Shown here one piece after another: positions 10,272 through 15,801 of a stretch of DNA of 20,236 nt. Numbering within the stretch: position 1 is the stretch's first letter; each line of letters opens with the position of its first letter. Location: IMG/VR virus record IMGVR_UViG_3300025141_001009, positions 1 to 20,236 of that record, one strand, 5' to 3'. The stretch is from a virus. The position numbers were made by a program, and so were the translations under genes. The notes under the pieces are model-generated. The model ran no database searches. It was not told where the DNA came from and worked only from the letters and a program-made list of their open reading frames with translations.

Positions 10272-10835
10272 ATGCCATCACCAAAAGGCGACCCAACATA
10301 TATTAAAAATAAGGAGAAGTTCTTCCTTGAAGTAGCAGAGACAATTGCTAAAGCATCAACACATCCGATAGCACCAGGTGGGTGCGTCATGGTCCGTAGC
10401 CGTGAAATTATCGGTGACGGTCGAAGCCTACTAGCTGCATGTAAGGTTGAACTTGACTGTATCAGTCATGCTATTGCAACTGCTGCATCTAGAGGCACAC
10501 CCACAACAGGTGCTGTTATCTATAGCACCAGATATCCCTTCTCAGCCTCAGTCTTTCAAGCCTACATTATGGGCATCAGAAAGATTGTAGTCACTGCTCA
10601 TGAATGGGAGCCATTTTATAAAGACGAATTTAGACGTGCAGCACGACTAGCACGTGACCTATGTATTGCCATCGAGCCGTATTTTAAAGATGAAGACAAA
10701 CGCTTTGCGGTTAACAAACAACCGGAGGAGAGCCATGACGAGGAATTCTACCCAGACGGGAACCCTTATGAACAGGACGATTTCGACCCTGAAAACTCAG
10801 AAACAATCTACGATGAAGACCCAACTGCTATTTGA
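10272..10835 (+). CDS. dCMP/cytidine-deaminase-fold protein lacking all zinc ligands (pseudoenzyme)
   Basis: 187 aa. Residues 55-107 align without gaps to phage dCMP deaminases: A-I-x-x-A-A-x-x-G at 67-75, GAVIYSTRYP (80-89), then GIRKIVV (101-107). The active site is gone. The HAE motif is Asp62-Cys63-Ile64, so both the zinc His and the catalytic Glu are lost, and PCxxC is P-F-S-A-S (89-93), so both zinc Cys are lost. Deamination by the known mechanism is not possible. The fold may serve as a nucleotide sensor, partner of RNR or polymerase, or inhibitor. The C-terminal 50 residues are very acidic (DEEFYPDGNPYEQDDFD). Its last 23 bases overlap the exonuclease gene. Confidence 0.75.
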   Translation: MPSPKGDPTYIKNKEKFFLEVAETIAKASTHPIAPGGCVMVRSREIIGDGRSLLAACKVELDCISHAIATAASRGTPTTGAVIYSTRYPFSASVFQAYIMGIRKIVVTAHEWEPFYKDEFRRAARLARDLCIAIEPYFKDEDKRFAVNKQPEESHDEEFYPDGNPYEQDDFDPENSETIYDEDPTAI

Positions 10836-11340
10836 CTTGGAGAGTACAGGGCTATTACGCCGTGGAAGTTCCATACATTGCATTGTGATGCGCAACCTAG
10901 AAGCTGAAGACACTCCCATTGTCTTTGACTGTCAGCCTGACCGTGACATACAGCAAGGTATTAGACAGCTTGAGAGTGCTGATGTCCTTATTGGCCACAA
11001 CATTATCAGCTTTGATATCCCACTACTGAAGGAACAGTACCCCGAGTTTGAATACAAGGGTGAGCTGATTGACACACTTGTCCTTAGCAGACTGTTCTAT
11101 CCCAACATCATTGACCGTGACTTTGAACGTCGCCCTGATGGGATGCCACAGAAACTGTATGGGCGTCATAGTCTAGAAGCATGGGGCTATCGCCTACGTT
11201 GCTTCAAAGGTGACTATGGCAAGCACGAAGGTGCATGGGAAACCTACACCCCAGAGATGCTTGATTACTGCATCGGTGACACAGAAGTCACGCTGAAACT
11301 CTATCAAATGCTGCTTAGGAGGATTGATGGTTACACCTGA
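10813..11340 (+). CDS. DNA polymerase 3'-5' exonuclease domain as a separate protein
   Basis: 175 aa, the proofreading half of a T7 gp5-like family A polymerase. DEDDy motifs: FDLES (7-11) with Asp8 and Glu10, IGHNIISFDIPLL with the second Asp, and MLDYCIGDTEVT near the end, matching the T7 'V-Y-C-x-K-D-x-E-V-T' Tyr/Asp motif. I start it at ATG 10813 (MKTQLLFDLES), because longer in-frame starts only repeat the deaminase-like gene. It stops at TGA 11338-11340, 14 bases into the polymerase gene. In T7 both domains are one chain, so here the split lies between exonuclease and polymerase. The two proteins probably assemble. Confidence 0.85.
   Translation: MKTQLLFDLESTGLLRRGSSIHCIVMRNLEAEDTPIVFDCQPDRDIQQGIRQLESADVLIGHNIISFDIPLLKEQYPEFEYKGELIDTLVLSRLFYPNIIDRDFERRPDGMPQKLYGRHSLEAWGYRLRCFKGDYGKHEGAWETYTPEMLDYCIGDTEVTLKLYQMLLRRIDGYT
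11317..11322 (+). promoter_or_regulatory. Strong Shine-Dalgarno for the polymerase half, inside the exonuclease gene
   Basis: AGGAGG lies four bases before ATG 11327 and within the last codons of the exonuclease gene. Most genes here lack such a site. It supports separate initiation of the polymerase domain and argues that the split is genuine, not a sequencing frameshift. Confidence 0.65.
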
Positions 11341-12634
11341 TTACGTCAAACTTGAGATGCGTATGGCTGAACTGATGGCACAACAGGAAGCTTCAGGCTT
11401 TCAGTTCGATGTCGTTGCAGCTGAACGTGTCCGAGGAGAACTCGCGGAGGAGGCTAAAAGTATTGAAGAAAAAATTCGGGCCGTATATTTGTATGTGCCT
11501 GACAAAGTCTTCACACCAAAGCGGAACGATAAAAAGAAAGGCTACGTATCTGGTGCACCACTAACGAAGCTGAACGACTTCAACCCAACCAGCAGGCAGA
11601 ACATTGCTTGGGCATTGCAAACCTTTAGGGGTGCTCGCTTCACAAAGCAGACTGCTACTGGCAAGCCACAGGTTGATGAGGCAACGCTATCAGAAGTTAG
11701 AGACCTTGCACTAACCCAAGGTAACCAGCAGCTGTTTGAAGAATGCGAATGGTTTATTCGTTTGCTGACATTACAGAAGTGGATGGGTCAATTAAGTGAA
11801 GGTACTAACAGTTGGTTTAATACAATTGAAGAGGATGGTTGTATCCATCACACCTGCTCATTGGCCACACAAACGGGACGTAACGCGCACCGTGGCCCCA
11901 ACCTTGGGCAAGTGGTGAGTGCACCGTGGGCACGAGAGCTATTTGTTCCTCACCCTGGCCACAAGATGGTCGGAGCAGACCTTGAAGGCCTAGAGCTGAG
12001 GTGCTTAGGGCACTACCTCGCCAGGTATGACAATGGTAATTTCGCTTCAGTTGTACTCGATGGTGATATACACCAGCAGAATGCTGACCGTGTTGGCGTT
12101 ACAAGAACGCAGGTCAAGACTCTCACTTATGCTTTTATTTATGGCGCAGGTGACGCAAAGCTTGGCCACAGTTTATCTCCTGAGCTATCTGACGCACAGA
12201 AAAAGTCTCTCGGAACGGAACTTAGGCGCAAGTTCCTCGACGCTATCCCAGGACTAGAGCCCTTAGTAGAAGCTATCAAGGAGCGTGTACGCGCCTCAGG
12301 GAGGCTGCGAGGCTTAGATGGTAGACCAATCTTCTGTCGTTCAGAACACAGTGCCCCTAACTTCTTACTGCAAAGTGCGGGCGCGATTTTGTCTAAGCGC
12401 TGGTGCGTTATAGGTCAAGACTTACTAAATGAAGCGGGGCTTACCTATGATAAAGATTATACCCGCTGTGCCTACGTACACGATGAACAGCAGTTCTCTG
12501 TGATCCCTGCTGAAGCTGAACGTGTTGCTGAACTATTAGTGAAAGCAGCACCTATGTCTGGTCAGTACTATCAATTTAAAGTACCGATCACTGCAGCGTC
12601 AGACATTGGAGATAGCTGGGCTGCCACACACTAA
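11327..12634 (+). CDS. T7-like family A DNA polymerase, polymerase domain only
   Basis: 435 aa from ATG 11327. Motif A is VGADLEGLELRCLGHYLARY (215-234, Asp218), very close to T7 gp5. Motif B is RTQVKTLTYAFIYG (260-273) with Lys264 and Tyr268 at the place of T7 Tyr526 (E. coli Pol I 762). Motif C is YVHDEQQ (383-389). TQTGRNAHRGPNLGQV (181-196) is the template/fingers motif. GYVSGAP and FNPTSRQNI (72-93) follow the T7 order, but the loop before them is about 20 residues where T7 has the 76-residue thioredoxin-binding domain. It overlaps the exonuclease gene by 14 bases. Exonuclease plus polymerase total 610 aa, against 704 in T7. Confidence 0.92.
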   Translation: MVTPDYVKLEMRMAELMAQQEASGFQFDVVAAERVRGELAEEAKSIEEKIRAVYLYVPDKVFTPKRNDKKKGYVSGAPLTKLNDFNPTSRQNIAWALQTFRGARFTKQTATGKPQVDEATLSEVRDLALTQGNQQLFEECEWFIRLLTLQKWMGQLSEGTNSWFNTIEEDGCIHHTCSLATQTGRNAHRGPNLGQVVSAPWARELFVPHPGHKMVGADLEGLELRCLGHYLARYDNGNFASVVLDGDIHQQNADRVGVTRTQVKTLTYAFIYGAGDAKLGHSLSPELSDAQKKSLGTELRRKFLDAIPGLEPLVEAIKERVRASGRLRGLDGRPIFCRSEHSAPNFLLQSAGAILSKRWCVIGQDLLNEAGLTYDKDYTRCAYVHDEQQFSVIPAEAERVAELLVKAAPMSGQYYQFKVPITAASDIGDSWAATH

Positions 12635-13929: not shown

Positions 13930-14076
13930 ATGACTACTGTACAAGTACAAGGCCTTCTGGCCGCCCGCAATAAAGAGCTTCGCACCCAACGTGAGTTCCA
14001 TGCAGCCCGACTGCGTGAACTGAACAAGCACGTGGGGACTACCTACACCTACCGTGGTGTGTCCTACACTAAATAA
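13930..14076 (+). CDS. 48-aa Arg-rich downstream peptide under the glutamine riboswitch
   Basis: An ATG seven bases after GGAG opens 48 codons to TAA 14074-14076, followed at once by a terminator, so this is a one-gene cassette. The product begins MTTVQVQGLLAARNKELRTQ and is basic, with regularly spaced Arg in a predicted helix (residues 9-33), then TYTYRGVSYTK. YRGVSY recalls the short cyanobacterial DUF4278 motif. The spaced-Arg helix recalls glutamine synthetase inactivating factors (IF7/IF17), which glutamine riboswitches control in host cyanobacteria. That resemblance is from memory and unaligned. It may act on host nitrogen assimilation, but the function is unproven. Confidence 0.75.
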   Translation: MTTVQVQGLLAARNKELRTQREFHAARLRELNKHVGTTYTYRGVSYTK

Positions 14077-15405: not shown

Positions 15406-15801
15406 ATGATTTCTATTCTTTCTAAGGCTGCTGCTGTTGTATGTGTATCCTGCCTTAGTGCTGGTTCTGCTGTAGCTGCTACTGCGCCTTACGTTAACAT
15501 CGAAAACAACTCTGGCTTCACTGGCCTTGATGAGTTCCTTGGTGGTGCTACTGACCTGCACGTAGGTGTTCAAACCGATCTGGGTGACTCCGGCCTGCTG
15601 TATCTGCAAGGTGGCCCCCGTCTCAACCACGTCAAAGATCAAGATATGAGCCAGGAGTATTCAGCTAAGCTGGGTGCAAGTGTGGATCTGTCTGACCAGT
15701 TCAATCTGTATGGCGAAATTCTTGCCGTTACTAACGACAAAGAATTCACTACTGATACCCTTTCCCTTGGTACTAAGGTCGGCGTTAAGTTCGTCTTCTG
15801 A
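15406..15801 (+). CDS. Small secreted outer-membrane beta-barrel-like protein
   Basis: 131 aa with a clear signal peptide (MISILSKAAAVVCVSCLSAG then SAVAA, cleavage near 25). The mature part has alternating polar/hydrophobic strands (DLHVGVQTDLG, GLLYLQGGPRLN, SAKLGASVDLS, NLYGEILAVTN, LSLGTKVGVKFVF). It ends in Phe, the outer-membrane beta-signal. Length allows about 6-8 strands. Proteins with a similar VNIENNSGF start occur in cyanophages as I recall. Codon use (many CTG, GTC, GGC) is more biased than in neighbouring genes, suggesting strong expression or recent host origin. It is a + strand single-gene cassette with its own promoter-like region and terminator among minus-strand genes. It may alter host surface permeability or block superinfection; neither is shown. 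Confidence 0.75.
   Translation: MISILSKAAAVVCVSCLSAGSAVAATAPYVNIENNSGFTGLDEFLGGATDLHVGVQTDLGDSGLLYLQGGPRLNHVKDQDMSQEYSAKLGASVDLSDQFNLYGEILAVTNDKEFTTDTLSLGTKVGVKFVF

Follow-up and report, generated by a model that had tools for sequence, protein, structure and literature searches.

The locus described here raises a simple question: when the exonuclease and polymerase domains of a phage replicative polymerase are read as two neighbouring genes, are they truly made as two proteins, or does a sequencing error, a recoding signal or an intervening element conceal a single one? The locus lies in IMG/VR virus record IMGVR_UViG_3300025141_001009, a 20,236-base fragment that was analysed over its whole length and is hereafter called the window. 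An earlier note, drawn up from the letters of the sequence, had interpreted positions 10813-12634 as a T7-like DNA polymerase split between its two domains by stable gene fission. Our analysis makes it highly probable that the polymerase gene of this lineage was truly split, long ago, at the border between its exonuclease and polymerase domains and now specifies two separate proteins.

Two overlapping genes carry the polymerase

Both genes lie on the plus strand and, at the coordinates that the note had given, in different frames. The first (10813..11340; ATG 10813 to TGA 11338-11340) encodes the proofreading part of a T7-like family A DNA polymerase, a 3'-5' exonuclease chain of 175 aa, and the second (11327..12634; ATG 11327 to the stop at 12634), in frame +1 relative to the first, encodes a 435-aa polymerase chain with thumb, palm and fingers. 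They overlap by 14 nt on the plus strand (11327..11340), from the polymerase ATG (11327-11329) to the exonuclease TGA, which arises from xxT GAy in the codons around polymerase Asp5. The strong AGGAGG that had been noted together with this overlap was likewise found, as a plus-strand Shine-Dalgarno sequence for the polymerase gene at 11317..11322, 4 nt before the ATG; its bases are those of two Arg codons, AGG AGG, close to the exonuclease 3' end. An alternative in-frame start, TTG at 11324..11326 (+), lies 3 nt upstream of the ATG and only 1 nt from the AGGAGG, and is less likely to be used than ATG 11327. Upstream, a plus-strand ORF of 187 aa with no assigned function (10272..10835) runs 23 nt into the exonuclease gene and forms one operon with it; this ORF is kept in G002 and G006, two of the relatives.

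The identity of the two chains is established by several matches. Pfam assigns the first to PF01612 (E 2.9e-5, above the cut-off) and the second to PF00476 (E 6.8e-28), while the PHROG families are phrog_17 for the exonuclease and phrog_15971 for residues 4-435 of the polymerase. By phmmer, the exonuclease chain matches residues 3-186 of T7 gp5 and the polymerase chain mainly residues 318-704 (704-aa numbering), and among solved structures the best match of both halves is T7 DNA polymerase. As had been claimed, every motif is intact in the window: I (DLE), II (N-x3-F-D) and III (Y-x3-D) in the exonuclease, and A (DLEGLELR), B (RTQVKTLTYAFIYGAG) and C (VHDE) in the polymerase. PF00476 with motifs A-C, and an exonuclease domain with motifs I-III, are thus the features of a T7-like family A polymerase found here, the latter as a separate chain; the union of both domains in one polypeptide is the single feature missing, from the two ORFs of the window and from 112/112 relatives. 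In comparison with T7 gp5, the window thumb appears about 40 residues shorter where T7 has much of its thioredoxin-binding insert, as judged by phmmer only, which spreads polymerase residues 51-70 over about 60 T7 residues in that region of the thumb.

The split is shared by a whole marine clade

The window is a single metagenomic contig, and a sequencing or assembly error, or a gene decaying in this one contig, would produce the same picture. An IMG/VR protein search returned 80 relatives at 67-84% identity, and wherever both halves are present in these, the exonuclease has its own stop and the polymerase its own start. A profile-based search and the addition of GTDB contigs raised the clade to 112 non-identical marine loci, all of which (112/112) are split and none fused, with ATG as the polymerase start codon in 110. 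The motifs, too, are kept across these 112 relatives except in a few rows (incomplete rows and three internal motif variants), and a motif-B pattern requiring Tyr at the 762 position is matched in every one. Error or decay, refuted by the same arrangement with intact active sites in 112 non-identical loci, can thus be given practically no weight.

Conservation of the fission throughout the clade is strongly supported. Fused genes are found only in outgroups, namely the MPP-A cyanopodoviruses (Syn5, P60, S-CBP2), T7-like phages and prophages of many bacteria, and S-EIV1. The search of related phages that the note had proposed therefore came out in favour of its reading, and the finding that it had named as fatal, a single fused gene in all relatives, is contradicted by the 0/112 count. 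The idea of stable fission is borne out by these counts and by the many members with genes interposed between the halves, while its second part, a separate dosage of the two activities, is compatible with the data and goes no further. Exonuclease and polymerase distances among the relatives are correlated (Mantel r 0.70, 0/999 permutations), which indicates that the halves mostly travel together. On this ground, the independent swapping of halves was rejected.

Genes come and go in the seam

The two halves stand 104-949 nt apart in 34 of 57 non-redundant relatives, in all three frame relations, and the spacers between them hold separate ORFs, one or two of them whole. Most contain a protein of about 80 aa resembling phrog_2171, a family with no assigned function (27/34 by the first query; e.g. 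L006 4657-4899 and L012 3850-4083), and ten contain a mini-protein of about 45 aa marked by 'CPVPWFYH'. Single cases hold a 191-aa ORF without assigned function or a GIY-YIG homing-type endonuclease, the latter lying in the seam of L003 (1654-2139) and L004 (1721-2206) and followed by the usual phrog_2171-like ORF. The note's statement that there is no intron or homing-endonuclease insertion consequently holds for the window, but not for these two relatives. According to a quick tree, spacer presence has changed at least 16 times. In the spacer-bearing members that were inspected, L012 among them, the polymerase start is overlapped in the same manner by the inserted ORF, whose TGA lies around the polymerase Asp5 codons. 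In the remaining, spacer-less members the overlap is mostly kept, and its 14-nt offset was the same in 32/32 of those tested.

The genes between the halves mean that, in this clade, the chains must be separate. One might nevertheless suppose a programmed +1 ribosomal frameshift at the exonuclease stop, yielding a full-length polymerase with the separate exonuclease as a by-product. A conserved frameshift would also give the +1 frame and 14-nt overlap common to most spacer-less relatives, and GenBank describes the genes of P-SSP7 and S-TIP37 as 'split or programmed frameshift'. The constancy of overlap and frame in the tested spacer-less members is, however, explained by shared descent, and no frameshift could join halves that, in relatives with the same polymerase start, stand 104-949 nt apart in three frames with one or two whole ORFs of their own in between. 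Moreover, the codon preceding the TGA differs between members (GCT, TCC, ACC, CAA, CCC and others), so that there is no conserved slippery site, and a good Shine-Dalgarno sequence and ATG are conserved at the polymerase start. The frameshift element of prfB has a short spacing between Shine-Dalgarno sequence and stop; here the two are about 15 nt apart. A frameshift gene was rejected in view of the interposed genes, the variable stop context and the want of a conserved slippery or stimulatory site, and we consider this explanation very unlikely.

Another explanation would see in the seam a former or present site of a mobile intron or homing endonuclease, with the halves spliced together as RNA or protein. 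The endonuclease in L003 and L004 would fit it; a group I intron in polA of cyanophage Pf-WMP3 (PMC3428280) offers a precedent; and an intron has been suggested for the split DNA polymerase of phage MEP401 (PMC10580990). But an Rfam scan at gathering thresholds of the window and six relatives with long spacers found no group I or II intron, the exonuclease stop and the polymerase start each stand alone, and the window is without any insert. Nor is there an intein-like extension, the coding ends in the window meeting at a domain loop. With no Rfam intron and no extra protein sequence at the window break, an intron- or intein-interrupted polymerase was rejected, and its chances are even slimmer than those of frameshifting. 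A homing-endonuclease origin of the fission event itself is possible.

Under two-protein fission, the seam represents an unusual site within a replisome operon, one that small genes enter and leave. It might be an evolvable docking slot, in which a small third protein has been gained and lost repeatedly as a replication or proofreading accessory tuning the association of exonuclease and polymerase; the third protein would be the phrog_2171-like one of about 80 aa, together with unrelated mini-ORFs, translated between the two chains. We put this forward as a tentative and rather improbable idea. In the loci examined, the phrog_2171-like ORF is confined to the exonuclease/polymerase seam, and neither the window nor G002 has it; the other phrog_2171 homologs in the phage collection come only from Synechococcus phages and cyanophages, most of which have genomes of T4-like size.

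A probable translation start inside the exonuclease gene

The exonuclease of spacer-less members mostly closes with Arg-Arg, after which come four or five residues that vary and then the stop. While arginine elsewhere in these genes is mostly encoded by CGT or CGC, the first seam Arg codon is xGG in 23/30 loci (background 0.16, p 3e-13) and the second is AGR, i.e., AGA or AGG, in 26/30 (background 0.21, p 2e-14). The loci being related, these p values overstate independence, but the bias is pronounced and extends across deep branches; once the loci are clustered at 88% identity, xGG is found in 13/17 and AGR in 16/17. This bias is best read as a sign of selection keeping the polymerase Shine-Dalgarno sequence inside the exonuclease gene.

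We propose that one operon mRNA would give rise to two separate proteins. The exonuclease chain would terminate at 11340, and the polymerase would be begun afresh at ATG 11327, where we infer initiation in vivo, by ribosomes either recruited by, or re-initiating at, the AGGAGG within the last Arg-Arg codons of the exonuclease. Across 54 non-redundant loci the Shine-Dalgarno match is better at the polymerase start (mean of 4.8 matching bases) than at the exonuclease start (2.7; Wilcoxon p 4e-7), which is compatible with the dosage idea, i.e., with more polymerase than exonuclease being made. With such a pair, nature would provide a T7-type replicase in two chains, and the dose of proofreading could vary without that of polymerisation.

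Could the two chains form one enzyme?

For structure prediction, the two frames of the window were read through the TGA as one linked chain. The AlphaFold2 model of this joined chain (pLDDT 95, pTM 0.92) resembles the complete T7 polymerase (TM 0.89), a result to be read with the covalent link in mind and with the bias toward the T7 arrangement that fused homologs in the alignment introduce. Since the chain was linked and fused homologs guided the model, it tells us that the two sequences together are compatible with the whole T7 fold, which is not proof that separate chains bind. In the model, the break falls in a short loop between helix 147-171 of the exonuclease and helix 175-194 of the polymerase. 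As this loop joins two helices at the domain border, the two chains would most likely assemble non-covalently into a proofreading enzyme like T7 polymerase.

Neighbouring genes and the probable host

The window begins with class I ribonucleotide reductase genes (large subunit fragment at 2-985, probable small subunit at 903-1733, overlapping by 83 nt), followed by ThyX, and its primase-helicase is VapE-type. Downstream of the polymerase, a glutamine riboswitch (RF01739; 13845-13904, +; 51.6 bits) stands directly 5' of a 48-aa ORF ending in YRGVSYTK (13930-14076, +), which has a terminator-like hairpin on its 3' side; the riboswitch recurs downstream of the polymerase in four relatives (L003, L006, L051 and L073) and may reflect phage-borne control over host nitrogen metabolism. 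Further on, a beta barrel resembling cyanophage outer-membrane proteins (15406-15801, +; PF24653, E 2e-26) provides a lead on the host and on a cell-surface function.

The large terminase of G002, the contig of L044, is 54% identical to that of Synechococcus phage S-EIV1, the sole close isolate found, and the window shares ThyX and further genes with this phage; among the genes of G002 is also one for a sigma-70 factor of seemingly cyanobacterial type. Because of the S-EIV1-like terminase, ThyX and other genes, the PF24653 barrel, the glutamine riboswitch and the sigma-70 factor, a cyanobacterium is the likely host. A protein search of the phage collection found no isolate belonging to the clade, and a DNA-level search of phage genomes gave nothing beyond short matches of 68-75%. 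The clade is an uncultivated marine one, probably of cyanobacterial phages.

S-EIV1 itself carries a fused T7-like polymerase (L110 30693-32564, KJ410740) with 36% identity to the polymerase half of the window, and despite this distant polymerase no other isolate has a terminase that comes nearer to that of a clade member. Low identity in the one gene beside the nearest match in the other suggests a polymerase replacement inside the lineage.

Relation to known split and fused polymerases

The polymerases closest to the polymerase half of the window are those of marine cyanopodoviruses, MPP-A and MPP-B, at 42-46% identity. In MPP-B (P-SSP7 ORF17A/17B, S-TIP37 17A/17B, S-SBP1 gp15/gp16) the gene is likewise split at the exonuclease/polymerase border into overlapping genes. 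The geometry is different, however: the MPP-B polymerase starts 40 nt before the exonuclease stop in frame -1, as against 14 nt and frame +1 in the clade, without AGGAGG and, in the 12 records compared (L082, L083, L085-L087, L091-L094, L098, L101, L102), identically and without a spacer ORF; the start is ATG, once TTG. MPP-B also have T7-like gene order and a gp4-type primase-helicase, in contrast to the VapE-type enzyme, class I ribonucleotide reductase genes and ThyX of the window. One further MPP-B record, L095 (P-GSP1, HQ332140), differs from all the others in that its exonuclease frame is broken about 110 nt before the polymerase, possibly through a sequencing error in the record.

For P-SSP7, proteomics 'confirmed ... 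a putative frameshift or ... a split variant' (PMC3350473). Some MPP-B loci, not all, have an A_AAA_AAC/T run just upstream of the polymerase, and no heptamer is conserved among the 12. Given this, we lean towards re-initiation over -1 frameshifting in P-SSP7-type phages. Split or recoded was thus left open for T7-like cyanopodoviruses (PMC3350473, GenBank notes), and the present clade settles the matter for its own kind.

Did the fission occur once, in a common ancestor of the MPP-B polymerases and the clade, or twice independently? This question concerns the origin of the split within the fission explanation, and we see the chances of the two answers as about even. For a single event, all split polymerases fall together in our careful 50-row tree (bootstrap 88, SH-aLRT 75), one state change suffices in the quick tree, and the same domain border is involved in both clades. 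Against it, neither of the two alternatives, each a grouping with the fused MPP-A clade, is rejected by AU tests on the 50-row tree (p 0.35, 0.44), a larger quick tree gave the alternative the higher likelihood, and frame and overlap differ between MPP-B and the clade. In the 50-row tree the window falls outside the MPP-B polymerases, in a clade of its own with full support (20/20 rows), possibly the sister of MPP-B. A single fission shared with MPP-B is favoured by the 50-row tree, but we do not claim it.

Fused polymerases (T7 gp5; Syn5, P60 and S-CBP2; S-EIV1) have the same two domains, order and motifs as the window pair, but in a single chain. The OM43 phages MEP401 and MEP402 (PMC10580990), for which intron splicing was considered possible, are also marine and have their family A polymerase divided over two ORFs, between which lies a small one without assigned function; their break, however, lies inside the polymerase domain (ORF13 comprises the exonuclease and the N-terminal polymerase part), and that of the window exactly between domains. 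In the T4-like Aeromonas phages 25 and 44RR, the replicative polymerase is made of two chains as well (PolB, gene 43A/43B), although it is a family B enzyme, broken at another point, with a seg endonuclease or untranslated sequence inserted. For phage 25, the 43A and 43B chains co-purify and show activity (Petrov et al. 2010, cited by PMC2988022). The window pair may work like them, as a two-subunit proofreading polymerase. PHROG 15971 ('DNA polymerase I') and phrog_403 ('DNA polymerase exonuclease subunit') are existing families of exonuclease-less and exonuclease-only phage chains; they are annotation families only, and describe neither the clade nor the seam genes. Where annotation or marker-gene surveys look for a single full-length PolA, this marine group may be mislabelled.

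A T7-like polymerase split at the exonuclease/polymerase border is therefore already known from MPP-B. What goes beyond the known cases is that the split is universal in the clade, that interposed genes show that the chains must be separate, and that the seam gains and loses small genes.
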